Positions 12,843-23,702 of a stretch of 64,000 bases of DNA are shown here, in pieces. Position numbers and translations under genes: made by a program. Under the pieces are notes generated by a model, which was not told the DNA's origin, did no database searches, and worked only from the letters and a program-made list of their open reading frames with translations. The DNA lies in contig JASMHE010000008.1 of the NCBI GenBank assembly GCA_030750865.1, positions 62,001 to 126,000 of the forward strand, given 5' to 3'. This DNA comes from Alphaproteobacteria bacterium (GTDB taxonomy: Bacteria > Pseudomonadota > Alphaproteobacteria > Micavibrionales > Micavibrionaceae). Each line of letters opens with the position of its first letter. The stretch's first letter is position 1.

Positions 12843-13805
12843 TTAGTCATCGGTATGTGTGTCATCCTCTGTTTCTGCGGGATACTGCTGATCGGCCTGC
12901 GGCGGCAGGGTGGTGTCGTTGCGCTGTGGAGGTGTAATGTCCAGCCATGCGGCGTCTGTTAAGGTGATGGATGCGCCGTTATAGTCTTCCAGCCATCCAT
13001 GCACGCGCACGTGCTTGCCACCCAGATCAAGCGGGTTGATGTTGCGCTTTGCCAGATCGCGGCGGGTATCTGATGAAATGGAAATGGTGAAATCAGTGCG
13101 CCAGTTATCACCGAAATTCAAATAGATACGGTTTTTTACAGCGGCCGTTTTTTTGACCGTGCCATCGACGATGGCCCATTGTCCATAAACAGGGGCGGTG
13201 TTGAGCGTGCTTGCCTGCATGGGGTTATAACGGGCATCCAGCCATAGACCATGATGATTGGTGATGGCATATTGTTCAAAGATTTTCAGCGTATCGATAA
13301 CGTCCAGATTGTCGGTTGTCGGGTAAAGGCGGGCATATCCGTTCTCCAGCAGAATTTTTTGTAGCCAGATATCATGCGTTTCCCCGCTGTCTTTATCTGT
13401 GCCTTGCACGATAATTTGCGCCAGATCGTATCCCATGCGGTTTTTCCGTTGTGCTTTATCACGGCTTTGATAAAGCGTGACTTTTTGTCCGGTGAATGTA
13501 TCCAGTTTTGTTTTGACGGCCTGTGCGACGGGGCCGAAATCATGGACGGTAAAGTCCGGCACATCCAGATTGGCAAGCTGGACGATATGCTTTTTATCAA
13601 TCTCGATCCGTAACGGGTCCATAATACGTGTAATGCGGCCGCTGATTGTTTTTGACAGAGCGCTTTGATAGGCAGGCGCGGGGGTGTTTGTCGCAGAGGT
13701 CGCTGTATCTTGTGCGGCCGCGCTAATGTTGCTAAAACAAACAAGAAGAAAAAACATCACCATTGTGATGATTGGTGTATTTTTACAAAAGGTTGATATC
13801 CGCAT
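12843..13805 (-). CDS. Exported SNase-fold protein with degenerate active site
   Basis: A 320-residue protein with an N-terminal signal peptide (ITMVMFFLLVCFSNISAAAQD, cut after AAA) and a staphylococcal-nuclease (OB-fold) domain in residues ~45-175. The fold is suggested by GRITRIMDPLRIEI, the YDLAQIIVQG strand and WLQKILLENGYARL. A second beta-rich domain (RIYLNFGDNWRTDFTISI) follows, as in other bacterial thermonuclease-family proteins. The usual catalytic residues are not there: the R-x-x-GxDxPE region reads QLANLDVPDF, and the second Arg position in GRxLA is Tyr (GYDLA). It is therefore probably not an active nuclease. The chosen ATG interlocks with the start codon of the divergent protease gene (CATG); a later ATG at 13763 is possible. 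Confidence 0.7.
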   Translation of the reverse strand: MRISTFCKNTPIITMVMFFLLVCFSNISAAAQDTATSATNTPAPAYQSALSKTISGRITRIMDPLRIEIDKKHIVQLANLDVPDFTVHDFGPVAQAVKTKLDTFTGQKVTLYQSRDKAQRKNRMGYDLAQIIVQGTDKDSGETHDIWLQKILLENGYARLYPTTDNLDVIDTLKIFEQYAITNHHGLWLDARYNPMQASTLNTAPVYGQWAIVDGTVKKTAAVKNRIYLNFGDNWRTDFTISISSDTRRDLAKRNINPLDLGGKHVRVHGWLEDYNGASITLTDAAWLDITPPQRNDTTLPPQADQQYPAETEDDTHTDD

Positions 13806-15300
13806 GACTGTTTTCTCACAACACGTAAATGTTTTGTCTGCGTTCGGTACGCATGCGCAACGCGCTATATTCCTGTGTTTGGCCTGCATGGTCCTATTAT
13901 CGGCATGTTCAACCAATCCTGCAACAGGGAAAAGACAATTTACCGCATTAATGTCACCTGCGCAGGAACAAGCCGTTGGGGCGCAGGAGCACCGCAAGAT
14001 TGCAGCGGCGTACGGTATTGATTCTGTCGATCCTGACATTGTCGCCTATGTACGGGGGGTCGGTGAACGGGTGGCGCAGAATGTCGAACGCACGGATGTC
14101 ACGTATAAGTTTTATGTGCTGGATACGGAAATGGTGAATGCGTTTGCATTGCCGGGCGGCTATGTTTATGTAACGCGGGGCTTGTTGGCGCTGGCCAATA
14201 GCGAAGCGGAGCTGGCGGCAGTGCTGGGTCATGAGATCGGCCACATCACAGCCCGTCATTCGGCCGAGCGTTATTCACATGGCGTTCTGACCCAACTTGG
14301 CGCAACCATTTTATCAACGGCACTGGATAGTGGCATCGCATCACAGGCCATCGGTCTAAGCTCGAATGTGTATATGAGTTCTTATTCGCGCTCACAGGAG
14401 AGCGAAGCGGATGATCTTGGAATTCGTTATGCCTATAAGGCGGGGTATAAGCCGCAATCAATGGCATGGTTTTTGGAGAGTCTGGATCGGCATGCAGCCT
14501 TTGAAAGTAAGCTTGAAGGCGAAGAAGCGCCTGCATTCAGCTATTTCTCAACCCACCCGAGAACGGCAGACCGTGTGAAAAAAGCAACGGAAATTGCGCT
14601 GACATACCCACAAGATGCAACAAATGTTGGGCGCGGGCCTTATCTGGCATCGATTGATGGCCTTATTTATGGGCCGAGCGCGCGCGAAGGCTATGTGCGC
14701 GGACGGTATTTTTACCATCCTGAAATGGATTTCACTTTTGAAGCGCCCGAAGGGTTCGAGATTGAAAACCAGCCCGATCAAGTGGTTGCCAAAAATGATG
14801 ATAATGCTGTTATAATCTTTGATGTCGCGGCCAACGGTGCGGACCTCAGCGCTGAAAATTATCTGACCCAGATATGGATGAAGGGTGATGATATGGATAA
14901 TGTCGAGACCATTTCCATTCATGGGAAAAACGCGGCAACAGGCATGATCGAAGGGCGCGTGAATAACAGGCCTGTCACCATTCGTCTGGTGGCTGTGGAG
15001 TGGTCGCCTGCGCTGTTTTACCGTTTCCATGTTGCGTATCCGCGCGGATCATCAAGTCATTTTGTTGATGAGTTGAAACGCGCAACATACAGTCTGCGTA
15101 CCATGACGGATGATGAAAAGATGGAAATGCGGCCTTATATGATTGATATTATCACGGCGTCAAAAGGCAGCACGGTGCAATCCATTATTGCGCAGATGCC
15201 GTACCAGACCTATGTGGAAGAGCGCTTCCGCGCATTGAATGCACTGGCCGAGAACGAGCCGTTGCAGGTCGGGCAGCAATACAAAACCATTGACCGGTAA
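13804..15300 (+). CDS. M48 family metalloprotease lipoprotein (BepA/LoiP-like)
   Basis: A zinc protease anchored as a lipoprotein and probably facing the periplasm. The N-terminus has a hydrophobic stretch ending in the lipobox LLSAC (Cys ~35). The zinc site is HEIGH (~143-147) in LGHEIGHITARHSAE, with the third ligand in the downstream SQESEADDLG (~200). Beyond the ~240-residue peptidase domain lies a C-terminal region of ~250 residues without recognisable TPRs, containing repeated alpha/beta segments such as FTFEAPEGFEIENQPDQVV. BepA-type enzymes act in outer-membrane protein quality control; that role is inferred here. ATG 13804 has AAAGG upstream; a TTG at 13834 is the alternative. Confidence 0.85.
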   Translation: MTVFSQHVNVLSAFGTHAQRAIFLCLACMVLLSACSTNPATGKRQFTALMSPAQEQAVGAQEHRKIAAAYGIDSVDPDIVAYVRGVGERVAQNVERTDVTYKFYVLDTEMVNAFALPGGYVYVTRGLLALANSEAELAAVLGHEIGHITARHSAERYSHGVLTQLGATILSTALDSGIASQAIGLSSNVYMSSYSRSQESEADDLGIRYAYKAGYKPQSMAWFLESLDRHAAFESKLEGEEAPAFSYFSTHPRTADRVKKATEIALTYPQDATNVGRGPYLASIDGLIYGPSAREGYVRGRYFYHPEMDFTFEAPEGFEIENQPDQVVAKNDDNAVIIFDVAANGADLSAENYLTQIWMKGDDMDNVETISIHGKNAATGMIEGRVNNRPVTIRLVAVEWSPALFYRFHVAYPRGSSSHFVDELKRATYSLRTMTDDEKMEMRPYMIDIITASKGSTVQSIIAQMPYQTYVEERFRALNALAENEPLQVGQQYKTIDR

Positions 15301-15469: not shown

Positions 15470-16360
15470 TTATACGTCAACCAGAATATCCCGGCTGTCT
15501 GTGACATGCTTGCCTAAAGATGTTTTCAATTTTTCCATTGCGCGGCTTTCAAGTTGTCGGACACGCTCTTTGCTGACGCCGAGCTGGTTGCCAAGCTCTT
15601 CCAGTGTCAGTGTGTCATAGACAAGGTGACGGTCGTGAATGATTTTTTGTTCCCGTTCACTCAGTTCACCGAGCGCACTTTTTAGCCAGTTGGATCGTGT
15701 TTCCATGTCCCGCATACCGACGACAACATCTTCGGGGTTCGGGCGTTCATCGGCCAGAAAACTCTGCCATTCATCCGCACCTTCTTCGTCTTTCAATGTT
15801 GCGTTGAGGGATTGGTCATTGCCGAAAATGCGGCTTTCCATCATTTCGACATCTTTCAAGGACACGCCAAGTTCCTCGGCAATTTCTTTTCTGTTCTTTT
15901 GGTTCAGAGTTGCCTTTTCGTCGCGGTTTTCGATTTTGGCGCGCAGGCGTCGCATGTTGAAGAAGAGGGACTTCTGCGCTGCTGTTGTGCCCGTCCGTAC
16001 GATCGACCAGTTGCGCAGCACGTAATCCTGAATAGAAGAACGAATCCACCATGACGCATATGTCGAAAAGCGGATATCGCGGGTTGGATCGAATTTTTCG
16101 GAGGCCTGCATCAGGCCGATATTACCTTCCTGAATCAGATCACCGATTGGCAAACCGTAATTTTTGAATTTCGATGCCATTGCAATCACAAGGCGCGTGT
16201 AGGAATTAATCAATTCATGCAGCGCTTTTTCATCGCGGTCTTCTTTCCAGCGTGTCGCAAGCGCAAGCTCGTGATCTTTTTCTAGCATCGGCGCGTCCAT
16301 CGCCTTGCGGATATAGTCCAAATTTGCCTTTTGTGTTTGTTCGTCATCAATGTGAGCCAT
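15470..16360 (-). CDS. rpoH: Heat-shock sigma factor RpoH (sigma-32)
   Basis: Alternative sigma factor directing RNA polymerase to heat-shock promoters. The 296-residue length and all regions fit: region 2 with LIQEGNIGLMQASEKFDPTR and FSTYASWWIRSSIQDYVLRN, the RpoH-box QKSLFFNMRRLRAKI that separates RpoH from RpoD and RpoS, and region 4 LTLEELGNQLGVSKERVRQLE as the -35 helix-turn-helix. GAGAGG precedes the ATG at a good distance. Its neighbours carD and fdxA, and heat-shock targets clpX and clpB in the same window, fit a stress context. Alphaproteobacteria often have two rpoH copies; which one this is cannot be told. Confidence 0.95.
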   Translation of the reverse strand: MAHIDDEQTQKANLDYIRKAMDAPMLEKDHELALATRWKEDRDEKALHELINSYTRLVIAMASKFKNYGLPIGDLIQEGNIGLMQASEKFDPTRDIRFSTYASWWIRSSIQDYVLRNWSIVRTGTTAAQKSLFFNMRRLRAKIENRDEKATLNQKNRKEIAEELGVSLKDVEMMESRIFGNDQSLNATLKDEEGADEWQSFLADERPNPEDVVVGMRDMETRSNWLKSALGELSEREQKIIHDRHLVYDTLTLEELGNQLGVSKERVRQLESRAMEKLKTSLGKHVTDSRDILVDV

Positions 16361-16474: not shown

Positions 16475-16498
16475 AAAACACATCCGAAAATGTGTTTT
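16475..16498 (-). terminator. A/T-rich hairpin terminator of the phosphatase-fold gene
   Basis: AAAACACAT (16475-16483) pairs perfectly with ATGTGTTTT (16490-16498) around a 6-base loop, and the minus strand continues in T. It is 36 bases past the stop of the gene ending at 16534. The same DNA lies upstream of rpoH, so it also shields the rpoH promoter. Confidence 0.6.
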
Positions 16499-16533: not shown

Positions 16534-17403
16534 CTAGATATCGAGAATATCGATAACATTGGCCTCTTGATCAAATCCGGCAGCAACCAGAGAGCCACCG
16601 AACCCGCAACCGCCGTCAATGGTGGCGGTAACGCAGTTAATGTGCATGCCCTTATGTTTCGGATCGTAGCCGCGTATCACGCGTTTAAACGGATCATATT
16701 CACGTGTGATGTCCTGAAAATTATGGCGTGACCACCAGAAACTATCACCTTGTCGTTCCAGATTCTCGGATGGGTTAATGCCGGCATTCACGAACAGCAT
16801 CGGTGCAGGGGCATCGGGAATGGTTTCGGGGTGTGGTGTCGGCACGTTTGTATGTCCGGCACGTTTTAAATGCGTCTGGAATATTTCATGACCGGGTTTA
16901 CTGCGGATACGCTGGCGGATTTTTCCGGTCCAGCGGGCCAGTGCGACACAGCCTTCGCGTGCGGCTTCAATACCGTCATGCGCATCAAAGCCATAATCTT
17001 CGAGGGTCGAAGCAACACCATTACCCAGCATCCAGACGAAATCGTCCACCGGATTAGGCGAGAAATGGAGTTGTAATGTTTTTTGCCACATTTCTTCCTG
17101 ATTACCGCGCAGGTAAACAAGATCATCAACCAGCATGCCCGGCATAGCCAAAACCATACGGCGGAATGTCAGCAGTTCGTCGATGACGGCACATGGCGCG
17201 TTGCCGTGTCCGAGATAATTTCCCAGATAAATGATGCGGTCGCCGGGGCGGATACGCTCGAAAAGGTGATCGTGCAGCTTTTCAAGTCTGTTTAACTCGC
17301 CATGTATCGCAGAGACAGCCCATACGCGTCCGGGCGTACCGAGATGTGCGAAGCGAGAATCCGAGTCTGTTTTTATATTGGTGTGCGTCATACGCAAATG
17401 CAA
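16534..17403 (-). CDS. PPP-type phosphatase-fold protein, probable pseudoenzyme
   Basis: A 289-residue cytoplasmic protein whose layout follows the Ser/Thr phosphatase (PPP) metallophosphoesterase family, but with nearly every metal ligand replaced. Compared with the family motifs: GDxHG reads SAIHG (31-35); GDxxDRG reads GNYLGHG (61-67); GNHE reads GNQE (100-103); the later HAG reads NAG (FVNAGINPS); GHT reads GYD (VIRGYDPKH). Backbone residues around the motifs are kept (Gly, Asn, the C-terminal IDGGCGFGG turn), so the fold is probably intact and the gene is not decaying. A binding or regulatory role is likelier than catalysis. ATG 17403 or 17391 are both possible. It lies between carD and rpoH. 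Confidence 0.7.
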   Translation of the reverse strand: MHLRMTHTNIKTDSDSRFAHLGTPGRVWAVSAIHGELNRLEKLHDHLFERIRPGDRIIYLGNYLGHGNAPCAVIDELLTFRRMVLAMPGMLVDDLVYLRGNQEEMWQKTLQLHFSPNPVDDFVWMLGNGVASTLEDYGFDAHDGIEAAREGCVALARWTGKIRQRIRSKPGHEIFQTHLKRAGHTNVPTPHPETIPDAPAPMLFVNAGINPSENLERQGDSFWWSRHNFQDITREYDPFKRVIRGYDPKHKGMHINCVTATIDGGCGFGGSLVAAGFDQEANVIDILDI

Positions 17404-17535
17404 AAAAGATCAAGAAGTGTGTGTTTTAAAGAGAAGCGGCATAAAACCGGATTCTGTGAAGAAGTAATTACCAGAATCAATACCAGTATACAGTAAAATC
17501 AGGCGATTACAAATATATAGCGTGAAAAAAGTTTG

Positions 17536-17565
17536 CAATAAAAAAGCCCCGTCTGAACGAGGCTT
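17536..17565 (-). terminator. Terminator of carD
   Basis: AAGCCCCG (17544-17551) pairs with CGAGGCTT (17558-17565) with one internal mismatch and a six-base loop. On the minus strand a T-run follows (plus A-run from 17540). It lies 28 bases after the carD stop. Confidence 0.85.
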
Positions 17566-17593
17566 TGTTTATTCGTTTATAATGGGGCGCGTC

Positions 17594-18121
17594 TTACGCT
17601 GCGGCCGCTGTTGCTTCCTGCTTTTTACCCAGCATTGTTTCCAGCTGTTCAGCAGCTTGCAGTTCAGAGATATCCTCGACTGCGGCGACTTCGCGTGCCA
17701 GACGCTCAAGCGCGGATTGGTAAATCTGGCGTTCGCTGTATGATTGTTCGATCTCGTCGCTGTTGCGCTTCAGGTCGCGAAGCACTTCTGCGATTGAAAC
17801 AGGATCGCCTGAGTTGATTTTTGTTTCATATTCCTGTGCGCGGCGGCTCCACATTGCGCGACGAACTTTCGCTTTGCCTTTCAGTGTATCCATTGCGTCC
17901 TGAAGACGTGATTCTGTGCAAAGACGGCGCAGGCCTGAATTTTCCGCCTTCATGACAGGCACTTTAAGGCGCATACGGTCTTTTTCAAAAGAAATCGTGT
18001 AAAGCTTTACTTCCATACCACTGATAGACTGTGTTTCTACGCCTTCCACCTGACCAACACCGTGTGCTGGATATACTACATAATCGCCCGCCTGAAATTT
18101 AACGTTGTTATCGTTCGTCAT
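17594..18121 (-). CDS. carD: CarD/CdnL family RNA-polymerase-binding regulator
   Basis: Binds the RNA polymerase beta subunit and stabilises open complexes at many promoters, notably rRNA. The N-terminal Tudor-like RNAP-interaction domain opens with FQAGDYVVYPAHGVGQVEGVE. The C-terminal helical DNA-binding domain includes LCTESRLQDAMDTLKGKAKVRRAMWSRR-like helices with the expected Trp. Start: ATG 18121 (MTNDNNVKF) has AAGGTG nine bases upstream, so it is preferred to a GTG four codons earlier. The protein is 175 residues, normal for the family. The pairing of carD with fdxA is common in alphaproteobacteria, and rpoH close by makes this a transcription-control neighbourhood. Confidence 0.93.
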   Translation of the reverse strand: MTNDNNVKFQAGDYVVYPAHGVGQVEGVETQSISGMEVKLYTISFEKDRMRLKVPVMKAENSGLRRLCTESRLQDAMDTLKGKAKVRRAMWSRRAQEYETKINSGDPVSIAEVLRDLKRNSDEIEQSYSERQIYQSALERLAREVAAVEDISELQAAEQLETMLGKKQEATAAAA

Positions 18122-18372: not shown

Positions 18373-18711
18373 TTAGTCACCTTCGCCAGGAGATTCGCTA
18401 AAGTGCTCTGGGTACTTGTTTTCAACGTCTTTAAACTCTTCCGCTTCGGGAAGCGGGTCTTTCTGGCGGGTAATATTCGGCCATTTTTCCGAATATTCGC
18501 GGTTCATCTCGATGAATTTGTCTGCGCCGTCCTCGACATCGGGAATGATAGCTTCGATTGGACATTCCGGTTCGCAGACACCGCAATCAATACATTCATC
18601 AGGATGAATGACGAGCATATTCTCGCCTTCATAGAAGCAATCTACCGGGCATACTTCTACGCAATCTGTGTACTTACATTTGATACAAACGTCTGTCACA
18701 ACAAAAGTCAT
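18373..18711 (-). CDS. fdxA: 7Fe ferredoxin (FdxA type)
   Basis: Small electron carrier with one [3Fe-4S] and one [4Fe-4S] cluster. The N-terminal half carries the cysteine pattern [18 protein letters not shown] and [12 protein letters not shown], typical of FdxA. The C-terminal ~50 residues are the acidic helical extension usual in this subfamily. AGGA sits eight bases before the ATG. It starts 17 bases after the LD-carboxypeptidase stop, so it is probably at the end of a photolyase-carboxypeptidase-ferredoxin transcript. carD follows downstream on the same strand after a gap of about 250 bases that must hold its own promoter. Confidence 0.95.
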
Positions 18712-21204: not shown

Positions 21205-22170
21205 TTAATCTTTCAGGGCAGAGATGATCTCATCGCGGACTTCGTCTGCTTTCAGGTTGTCCACCTGACATGTTCCGGCCGCTTGGTGTCCGCCGCCGCC
21301 ATATTCCAGCATGAGATTGCCGACCTGCGTGTCTGACGTTTTGTTTAGAATGGATTTACCAACGGCAATAACCGTATTTTGTCTGTTGCGCCCCCACATG
21401 ATGTGCATAGACACATTACATTGCGGGAAGAGGGCATAGATCACAAAACGGTTTCCGGCCCAGATTGTCTCTTCGCGGCGCAGGTCCAGCACCACAACAT
21501 TTTTGTGAACCATAGAGCAACGCTGGATCTGTTCACGGAATTTGATTTCGTGCTCTTTGTAGATATCAACGCGTTCTTTAACATCGGGCAGGGCCAGAAT
21601 GTCGGATATGGATTTTTGCTGACGGCAATGGTCGATCAAATTCATCATCAAATTATAGTTGGAGATGCTGAAATCGCGAAAACGGCCGAGGCCCGTGCGC
21701 GAATCCATAATAAAGCTGAGAAGTTCCCACCCTTCGGGGTTCAGAATGTCATCCTTTGTGAAAGCGGCCGAATCGGCTTTGTCAACGGCATCCAGCATGT
21801 TTGGATGAATGTTTGATAGTTTCGGATTGTCTTTGCCGCCGAAATAATTATACACGACGCGCGCGGCTGACGGTGCGCTCGGGTCGATGATGTGGTTGTC
21901 GTGCGGTTGTTCCACACGCGTTTTTTCACTGTCGTGATGGTCGAAGCACAAGAAGATATTTTCATTATAGGGCAGGTTGGTTGAAATATCGTTTTGCGAT
22001 ACGTCGATACGTTTGTCCTGTAAATCTTTCGGATGCACAAACAGAATGTCATCTTCAATAATGCCAAGTTCTTTGAGGATGACACCGCAGACCAGACCAT
22101 CCATATCACTGCGTGTGATCAAGCGGTATTTTTTGTTCGGATCGGGCATCAGACGATTTTGTTCAGACAT
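21205..22170 (-). CDS. DHH-family phosphoesterase (nanoRNase/exopolyphosphatase-like)
   Basis: A 321-residue cytoplasmic DHH/DHHA1 phosphoesterase. The N-terminal metal site appears as ITRSDMDGLVCGVIL (in place of the usual xHxDxDG) and CFDHHDSE, the DHH-type motif. The C-terminal DHHA1 substrate domain ends with LMLEYGGGGHQAAGTC. Members cleave short RNA, cyclic dinucleotide products or polyphosphate; the substrate here is open. The first motif has Arg-Ser where many members have His, so metal binding may differ. Start: ATG 22170 (MSEQNRL) with GAGGT upstream; an ATG six codons earlier has no ribosome binding site. It is separated from clpX by 160 bases and a terminator. Confidence 0.8.
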   Translation of the reverse strand: MSEQNRLMPDPNKKYRLITRSDMDGLVCGVILKELGIIEDDILFVHPKDLQDKRIDVSQNDISTNLPYNENIFLCFDHHDSEKTRVEQPHDNHIIDPSAPSAARVVYNYFGGKDNPKLSNIHPNMLDAVDKADSAAFTKDDILNPEGWELLSFIMDSRTGLGRFRDFSISNYNLMMNLIDHCRQQKSISDILALPDVKERVDIYKEHEIKFREQIQRCSMVHKNVVVLDLRREETIWAGNRFVIYALFPQCNVSMHIMWGRNRQNTVIAVGKSILNKTSDTQVGNLMLEYGGGGHQAAGTCQVDNLKADEVRDEIISALKD

Positions 22171-22282
22171 GAAAGACCTCTTTTTCATTTGAAAACATTA
22201 CCTTAAAGGATAACGTATAATAGAACGTTAATAAAGATAGCATTTTCAGCTTTCTCGATTTGGCATTCTGTTTTGAGTGCAT

Positions 22283-22331: not shown

Positions 22332-23702
22332 TTACGCTGACTTTTCGTCGCTGTCCTTGTCTTTTTTGTCTTTATCGTCGTCTTTATCTTTGGATTTTTC
22401 GTCATCATCATCCGAATCATTTTTCTCGTCCTTATCGTCTTTCTTAGACTTTTTCTTAGTCTTTTTCTTTTCTTTGACGAGTTTCGGCTGCTTGTCTTTT
22501 TTGACGGTGTCTGCTTCGACAACAACTTCGCTGACATCATCCATGTCAGGCACGTCGAACATGCAGTCCATCAACAGGTTCTCAACGATAGAGCGCAAGC
22601 CACGCGCGCCGGTTTTGCGTTCGATCGCTTTTTCGGCAATGGCTTTCAGTGCACCGTCCGTGAAGGTTAGCTGCACGCCTTCCATTTCGAACAAGCGTTG
22701 ATATTGTTTCACGATAGCGTTTTTCGGCTCTGTCAGAATTTGCACAAGGGCATCAACATCCAGATCACGCAAGGTTGCGAAAACAGGTACACGGCCGATA
22801 AATTCAGGGATCAGGCCATAACGCAACAAATCTTCCGGTTCAAGGTCGGCCAGTAACTCACCTGTGCTGCGCTTATCCAAGCCGCGTACATCGGCACCAA
22901 AACCGATTGTTGTGCCGCGTCCACGTTCAGCGATCACCTTATCAATACCGGCGAAAGCACCGCCGCAGACAAACAAAATGTCTGTTGTGTCAACTTGCAG
23001 GAATTCTTGTTGCGGATGTTTACGTCCACCCTGTGGCGGTACACTTGCAACCGTACCTTCCATCAATTTCAGCAAGGCCTGCTGCACACCTTCACCCGAT
23101 ACATCGCGTGTGATGGACGGGTTATCGGATTTACGGCTGATCTTGTCGATCTCATCGATATAGACAATGCCGCGCTGTGCGCGTTCAACGTTATAATCGG
23201 ATGCCTGTAACAATTTCAGAACGATGTTTTCAACATCTTCACCAACATAACCGGCTTCGGTCAATGTTGTTGCGTCGGCCATTGTGAACGGCACATCCAG
23301 AATACGGGCCAGTGTTTGTGCCAGCAATGTTTTACCGCAACCGGTCGGGCCGATCAGCAGGATGTTTGATTTTGTCAGCTCCACCTCGGAATCACTTTGG
23401 CTGTGTTCCATACGTTTATAGTGGTTATGGACGGCAACGGACAGCACACGTTTGGCTTCTTGTTGCCCGATCACATAATCATCAAGAACGGCTTTGATTT
23501 CGCTTGGTGCGGGAACGCCTTCACCTGAACGGACAACGGATGTCTCGCTTTCCTGACGAATGATATCCATGCAGAGTTCAACACACTCGTTACAGATAAA
23601 CACATTCGGACCAGCAATCAGCTTTCTGACCTCATGCTGGCTTTTGCCGCAAAAGGAACAATAAAGGGTGTTCTTACTATCACTGTTTTCGGATTTACTC
23701 AT
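22332..23702 (-). CDS. clpX: ATP-dependent Clp protease ATPase subunit ClpX, with charged C-terminal tail
   Basis: AAA+ unfoldase that feeds substrates to ClpP. The N-terminal zinc-binding domain has C15, C18, C37 and C40. Walker A is GPTGCGKT (118-125), Walker B is [10 protein letters not shown], the ClpP-contact loop is TIGFGADV, and [10 protein letters not shown]-like [14 protein letters not shown] is near the end of the core. The core finishes near residue 400. Then comes a ~55-residue tail almost entirely of Lys, Asp, Glu and Ser with alternating basic and acidic clusters, not present in E. coli ClpX (424 residues). No clpP or lon is adjacent, which is unusual since clpP-clpX-lon is common. 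Terminator follows. Confidence 0.95.

Follow-up and report, generated by a model that had tools for sequence, protein, structure and literature searches.

A carD-associated family of putative PPP-fold pseudophosphatases in alphaproteobacteria

In the window, by which we mean the whole 64,000-nucleotide stretch of alphaproteobacterial DNA that was analysed, a gene lies between carD and the sigma-32 gene rpoH whose product resembles a PPP metallophosphatase with most of its catalytic residues exchanged. This raises the question of what such a protein is kept for. An earlier note on this DNA had proposed a phosphatase fold with all metal ligands replaced and, as its function, a pseudophosphatase retained for binding, perhaps a regulator. 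The gene and its neighbours are as follows.

16534 to 17391, minus strand: coding sequence of the putative PPP-fold pseudophosphatase, 285 aa from the ATG at 17391 (alternative TTG at 17403)
15470 to 16360, minus strand: sigma-32 gene (rpoH), downstream neighbour; NCBIfam NF005693 sigma-32 over cut-off, TIGR02392 RpoH below its cut-off
17594 to 18118, minus strand: carD/cdnL, upstream neighbour; Pfam CarD_C and CarD_TRCF_RID over cut-off; product ends Ala-Ala
18373 to 18711, minus strand: ferredoxin gene fdxA, upstream of carD; NCBIfam FdxA_Protbact over cut-off

The reading frame proved to be intact, as had been claimed for it, whether it is read from the ATG or from the TTG, in which case the product has 289 aa. 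The Pfam search of the protein returned zero families at E values up to 1, which leaves it outside the curated PPP families, and NCBIfam gave one match at E 0.034, far under the cut-off. Metallophos of Pfam matched 2 of 31 close relatives (best E 0.0013), and 4 of 20 PPP paralogues with intact motifs passed its cut-off. An automatic label of 'metallophosphoesterase' would mislead about the function of these proteins.

Structure prediction, which the earlier note had suggested as a check, upheld the phosphatase fold. The AlphaFold model of the protein, made from a 31-member alignment, reached pLDDT 91.9 and pTM 0.90. When Foldseek was run against the PDB, PPP phosphatases came out on top; the best match was 5vjv, Rhizobiales-like phosphatase 2 (E 9.2e-9, TM-score by query 0.59), and lambda phosphatase, PP5 and PP1 were among the further top matches. 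VIA gave Z 21.4 to 5vjv (rmsd 3.8, 229 residues aligned), 20.6 to 4j6o (Clostridium Pnkp phosphatase domain), 20.0 to 2qjc (ApaH-like) and 19.1 to 1g5b (lambda phosphatase). The nearest solved structure by sequence was again 5vjv, at E 0.0014 with the single protein and 5e-5 with the 31-member profile. Judged by this model, the protein has a PPP/calcineurin-like fold; a different fold was ruled out by the Foldseek and VIA matches to PPP phosphatases.

The active-site residues were compared in an alignment of 166 family members, the window protein included, with 20 intact-motif PPP paralogues that had been hand-picked from the best-scoring weak matches and are not a random sample. Bit scores parted the two groups cleanly, being at least 162.9 in the family and at most 64.1 in the paralogues. 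Five loci (L031 and L033 to L036) were excluded from the family set as repeats, duplicating L008, L005, L001, L015 and L026; strong matches in G026, G027, G038, G046, G050, G051, G054, G057, G362 and G762 lie outside the set, and one of the 166 members (L032) is labelled only Pseudomonadota. The two-arginine phosphate clamp was taken as defined for PPP phosphatases in a passage of PMC8249667, and its second arginine was assigned by us, from the paralogues, to column 222. The motifs of the window protein read as follows.

17299 to 17313, minus strand: motif I, SAIHG; A28 for an Asp ligand (Asp28 in 0/166 members against 20/20 paralogues), His ligand H30 kept (140/166)
17203 to 17223, minus strand: motif II, GNYLGHG; N58 (159/166) and G61 (165/166) for two Asp ligands, H62 for a clamp Arg
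17095 to 17106, minus strand: motif III, GNQE; N97 kept here (7/166), Q98 (153/166; His98 2/166) for the catalytic His, E99 kept (166/166)
16780 to 16788, minus strand: motif IV, NAG; N202 for a His ligand (column 202 has His in 80/166 and Asn in 47/166)
16726 to 16740, minus strand: FWWSR; family-specific W219 (160/166) beside the shared W220, column 222 being the presumed second clamp Arg
16663 to 16674, minus strand: motif V, RGYD; R240 family-specific (155/166), Y242 for a His ligand (His242 4/166)
16594 to 16617, minus strand: motif VI, DGGCGFGG, where paralogues read IDTGAY..G.L

The five motifs named in the earlier note (SAIHG, GNYLGHG, GNQE, NAG and GYD) were all present at the expected places, and the intact paralogues placed every one of them identically; mis-alignment of the motifs was ruled out, since the 20 sequences align unambiguously in all five. 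At the canonical ligands D28, D58, D61, H202 and H242 the window protein has A, N, G, N and Y, and it retains H30 and N97, two of the seven. The statement that all metal ligands had been replaced was thus right for positions 28, 58, 61, 202 and 242 and wrong for H30 and N97. Two losses that matter for activity had not been listed, namely that of the catalytic His (to Q98) and that of the motif II clamp Arg (to H62).

Across the family, Asp was found in none of the 166 members at column 58 or column 61, and Arg occurred at column 62 in 39. At column 222, Arg was present in a single member, namely the window protein (R222, combined with H62), against 19 of 20 paralogues. No member has both clamp arginines, and the two-arginine clamp is accordingly absent from the window protein. 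The complete PPP ligand set (D, H, D, D, N, H, H) was found in 20/20 paralogues, whereas at most three of the seven survive in any of the 166 members: none in 16 of them, one in 72, two in 75 and three in 3. When the set was thinned to at most 70% identity, leaving 131 members, the three Asp ligands were still present in 0/131. Since H30 and H202 occur together in 70 of the 166, a single weak metal site may be possible in some members. Having lost the ligands, the catalytic His and the clamp, these proteins should not catalyse metal-dependent phosphate hydrolysis, and from the sequence we hold with high confidence that the window protein is a pseudophosphatase without catalysis.

The distribution of the family was determined by searches at several ranges. 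Strong matches, of E 1e-50 or better, were obtained in 42 of 58 genomes of relatives, the window's own included. The family profile matched 134 of 385 genomes of the class at E 1e-47 or better, with the next match at 2e-16, and no strong match was obtained in the other 251 sampled; the gene is missing even from complete genomes of the window's own family. When 398 genomes from the phylum were searched with the profile, matches outside the class reached 2.6e-15 at best. A single-protein search of genome contigs found relatives in 2 of 23 stretches, the plasmid search yielded one weak match in Rhizobium sp. (27% identity, E 7e-4), and two peptide patterns, a shallow test, found zero relatives in viral contigs. 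In a FastTree analysis, for which nine motif columns were named for removal, one split with support 100 separated the 166 members from the 20 paralogues, and intermediates between intact PPP enzymes and the family were not seen in these class and phylum searches. The loss of the ligands is old and spread through many alphaproteobacteria. A lineage-specific accident was ruled out, at least four of the seven ligands being lost in all 166 members and none in the 20 paralogues; a single ancestral loss followed by selected repurposing would be the simplest history. Separately, relative L188 (G047:C1:367300-373600) gave two matches that overlap, covering query positions 3-183 and 123-283, in a 474-aa open reading frame, as if the domain had been partly duplicated.

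The alignment of homologues, another check that had been proposed, revealed conserved replacements at N58, G61 and Q98, which together with R240 are among the most conserved columns of the family; the other lost positions (columns 62, 97, 202 and 222) are loose. Besides R240, the family-specific conserved residues are W24, W154 and W219. Median entropy was 1.12 in the 47 columns of the old motif segments, which were drawn after the conservation data had been seen, against 2.29 in the 220 columns elsewhere. The dN/dS ratio lay between 0.038 and 0.249 in 28 of the 30 closest pairs, some of which share members, and dS was saturated in the remaining 2. The conserved replacements and the low dN/dS argue for a selected pseudophosphatase and not for decay, and the conserved loops with their replacement residues suggest that the old site is still used. 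Homology to active enzymes, loss of catalytic residues in a conserved manner and purifying selection, all of which characterize pseudoenzymes, were found here. The pseudophosphatase of the earlier note is thereby supported, with a predicted PPP fold, metal site and clamp gone in 166/166 members and purifying selection, its inactivity being read from the residues. As the loss is common to relatives in many alphaproteobacteria, the protein has probably been kept for the binding of a ligand or partner and not for the removal of phosphate.

To what it might bind can be approached through its neighbourhood. Flanks of 1.3-2.5 kb were read at each locus, some of which stop at contig ends, 5 loci being too short downstream. 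On the same strand, carD lies upstream at 140 of 166 loci (and is absent there in 26) and fdxA upstream at 106, while rpoH lies downstream at 73; carD and rpoH are both present at 67. The tie of the gene is thus closer to carD than to rpoH. When the neighbours were clustered, carD, fdxA, rpoH and a peptidase were the only recurrent genes among the readable clusters, and many unlabelled clusters of open reading frames probably run antisense to these genes. Some further features of the window were observed. The open reading frames at 12843-14039 (minus strand) and 13684-15300 (plus strand) overlap tail to tail at 13684-14039, probably with over-extended starts. ClpX (zf-C4_ClpX and AAA_2) is encoded at 22332-23702 on the minus strand, about 4 kb from carD, and carries at its C-terminus a tail, several dozen residues long, in which Lys, Asp and Glu are abundant. 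At 21205-22188, minus strand, a 327-aa protein appears DHH phosphoesterase-like by eye (SDMDG, FDHH, GGHQAAG), with no Pfam match at 1e-3; it is another possibly divergent phosphoesterase near the pseudophosphatase gene. Around the gene itself, the following candidate transcription signals were found.

17543 to 17566, minus strand: terminator-like hairpin in the gap between carD and the pseudophosphatase gene (-14.3 kcal/mol, z -4.61, 0/200 shuffles as good; in all, the terminator scan gave 4 sites where 3.6 were expected)
17485 to 17512, minus strand: promoter-like TTGTAA-16-TATACT, a possible own promoter, weak with 9/12 matches (the promoter scan of the region found 10 sites against 4.5 expected, sd 2.5)
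16475 to 16498, minus strand: A/T-rich hairpin after the stop codon, a weak terminator candidate (-8.3 kcal/mol, z -1.80, 13/200 shuffles as good; missed by the terminator scan)

The gene had been credited with its own terminator. A hairpin does follow it, but it is the weak one, and the strong hairpin sits between carD and the gene. The distance between carD and the following start has a median of 144 bases and is 60 bases or less at 22 of 140 loci; a home-made scan, run with no chance control, placed a terminator-like hairpin in this gap at 53 of the 140. The strong hairpin and the wide gaps speak against a plain carD operon, and co-transcription with carD is unlikely in the window genome. 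Among 41 hand-picked genomes without a strong match, carD was kept in 38, so CarD does not need the pseudophosphatase. Furthermore, at 10 of 30 carD loci from genomes without the gene, rpoH came directly after carD with no PPP frame between them. Such pairing in the absence of the gene indicates that the neighbourhood is older than the gene, or separable from it, and weakens the functional argument from position. The proposal of a regulator on account of its place between carD and rpoH is plausible: the place is conserved, but the two neighbours also pair without the gene, and the gene is probably not transcribed together with carD in the window genome.

We propose the following explanation, which as a whole we consider reasonably probable. 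The alphaproteobacterial family would consist of PPP-fold pseudophosphatases that act as metal-free binding proteins and modulate transcription control, most likely through CarD or RNA polymerase. In an ancestor the dinuclear metal centre would have disappeared, along with the catalytic histidine and the pair of arginines that clamp phosphate, after which the fold, the old active-site loops and the fixed replacement residues would have been kept under selection. The remodelled pocket or the surrounding surface would hold a ligand or a partner protein, and this binding would modulate transcription control, most likely at CarD, whose gene adjoins, or at RNA polymerase. The parts of this explanation are not equally firm. 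Our confidence in a binding role is fairly high; the link to CarD or RNA polymerase is tentative, gene position making these the likeliest partners. If CarD or RNA polymerase is indeed its target, the protein would be a concrete candidate for tuning CarD-dependent transcription in alphaproteobacteria, a step whose control passages of PMC11034885 describe as unknown for Caulobacter CdnL.

The C-terminus of CarD offers one way in which such an action could be imagined. Starving Caulobacter cells dispose of CarD (CdnL) by ClpXP, for which a C-terminal Ala-Ala serves as the signal, according to passages of PMC11034885 that also raise the possibility of a (p)ppGpp-sensitive adaptor for CdnL turnover. 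We found CarD to end in Ala-Ala at 124 of 141 loci that have the gene and at 20 of 30 that lack it (Fisher p 0.010, a value that ignores relatedness). This difference is a lead and not evidence of a link, because the signal is common in both sets. A more specific version of our explanation, in which a metal-free sensor would use the remodelled pocket to bind an alarmone or nucleotide, would hand CarD to proteolysis or RNA polymerase, or shield it from them, and would be the (p)ppGpp-sensitive adaptor in lineages with the gene, is in our estimate quite unlikely.

Other explanations were weighed against the same data. One of them, a sensor pseudophosphatase whose old pocket would bind nucleotides or alarmones and which would have no particular connection with CarD, seems unlikely to us, although several observations agree with it. 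The pocket loops stay conserved, carD is not upstream at 26 loci, and the nearest profiles are those of diadenosine tetraphosphatase and Pnkp phosphatase: 10 of the 31 close relatives weakly match the model of symmetrical bis(5'-nucleosyl)-tetraphosphatase (best E 2.4e-4) and 7 match bacter_Pnkp, with ApaH-type and Pnkp phosphatases also among the structure matches. However, this profile similarity is seen in intact paralogues as well, and so mirrors descent and not the ligand, and both clamp arginines are lost. The loss of the phosphate-clamp arginines speaks equally against another possibility, to which we would give very little weight: that the protein, like several eukaryotic pseudophosphatases, serves an active PPP paralogue as decoy or regulator, or reads the phosphosites of Hanks kinases. 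It is true that some class genomes hold the gene together with an intact PPP paralogue, as judged by second, weaker profile matches. In the window genome, though, the family profile finds only this pseudophosphatase, none of the three Metallophos proteins is of the PPP type by eye, and the sole Pkinase match has 22.5 bits against a cut-off of 31.7. A decoy for a PPP paralogue of the window genome was ruled out, none having been found by profile or Metallophos search. As neither a PPP paralogue nor a Hanks-type kinase above the cut-off was found in that genome, binding of a ligand or partner is preferred over a decoy or a substrate trap.

That the protein is still an active hydrolase, with a different or migrated metal site or with a single metal on H30, H202 and N58, is very unlikely. 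H30 is present in 140, H202 in 80 and E99 in all 166 members, and the conserved polar residues H40, D51 and D243 could serve as well; but a member retains three of the seven ligands at most, none of the 166 has any of the three bridging or terminal Asp, and H202 varies freely. In 153 members Gln takes the place of the catalytic His, and of the ligands the window protein is left with H30 and N97 alone. At the other extreme, a neutral remnant, a gene on its way out that persists in an ancient neighbourhood, would be consistent with the repeated loss of the gene even within the window's family (for example G003, G005, G007, G023 and G031) and with the in-frame TAG of relative L054. It is contradicted by the dN/dS of 0.038-0.249, an internal stop occurs in none of the matches listed from the relatives' genomes, and the replacement residues are near-invariant across the class; we regard a remnant as extremely improbable. 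The TAG of L054 (G394:C24) lies near the C-terminal end; its close kin L056 and L060 have intact frames, and carD is upstream in none of the three.

The preferred metal-free binding protein can finally be set beside known systems. With bacterial PPP phosphatases (the lambda PP type of 1g5b and the 20 paralogues) the family shares the fold, the motif order, the Gly frame of the motifs and the residues E99, W120, H168, Q214, W220 and D259. It differs from them in that the Asp ligands and the clamp Arg are lost, the catalytic His is replaced by Gln, and an extra helical region and the residues W24, W154, W219 and R240 are present. Rhizobiales-like phosphatase 2 (RLPH2, 5vjv) is the best match by sequence profile, Foldseek and VIA; it reads GDIHG and GDYCDRG where the family reads xAIHG and GNYxG in the profile alignment. 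The ApaH-type diadenosine tetraphosphatases and the Pnkp phosphatase domain are alike in structure, and their profiles were weakly matched by 10 and 7 of the 31 relatives, whereas the window protein is without the dinuclear metal ligands, is without a kinase or ligase domain, and scores far below the NCBIfam cut-off where bit scores are given (12.3 against 750 bits). Pseudophosphatases as a kind are already known, mainly from eukaryotes; one of them, PHLPP, is a eukaryotic member of the PPM family and not of PPP. In the open-licence PubMed Central literature we found neither an example of a bacterial PPP pseudophosphatase nor a description of the present family. The window protein resembles PHLPP2 in being a phosphatase relative with an altered active site, PHLPP2 being reported in PMC12002173 to lack detectable activity because of that alteration. 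What is added here is a putative PPP-fold pseudophosphatase, as yet without a Pfam model, that is encoded after carD and has members in one third of the genomes sampled from the class (134/385).
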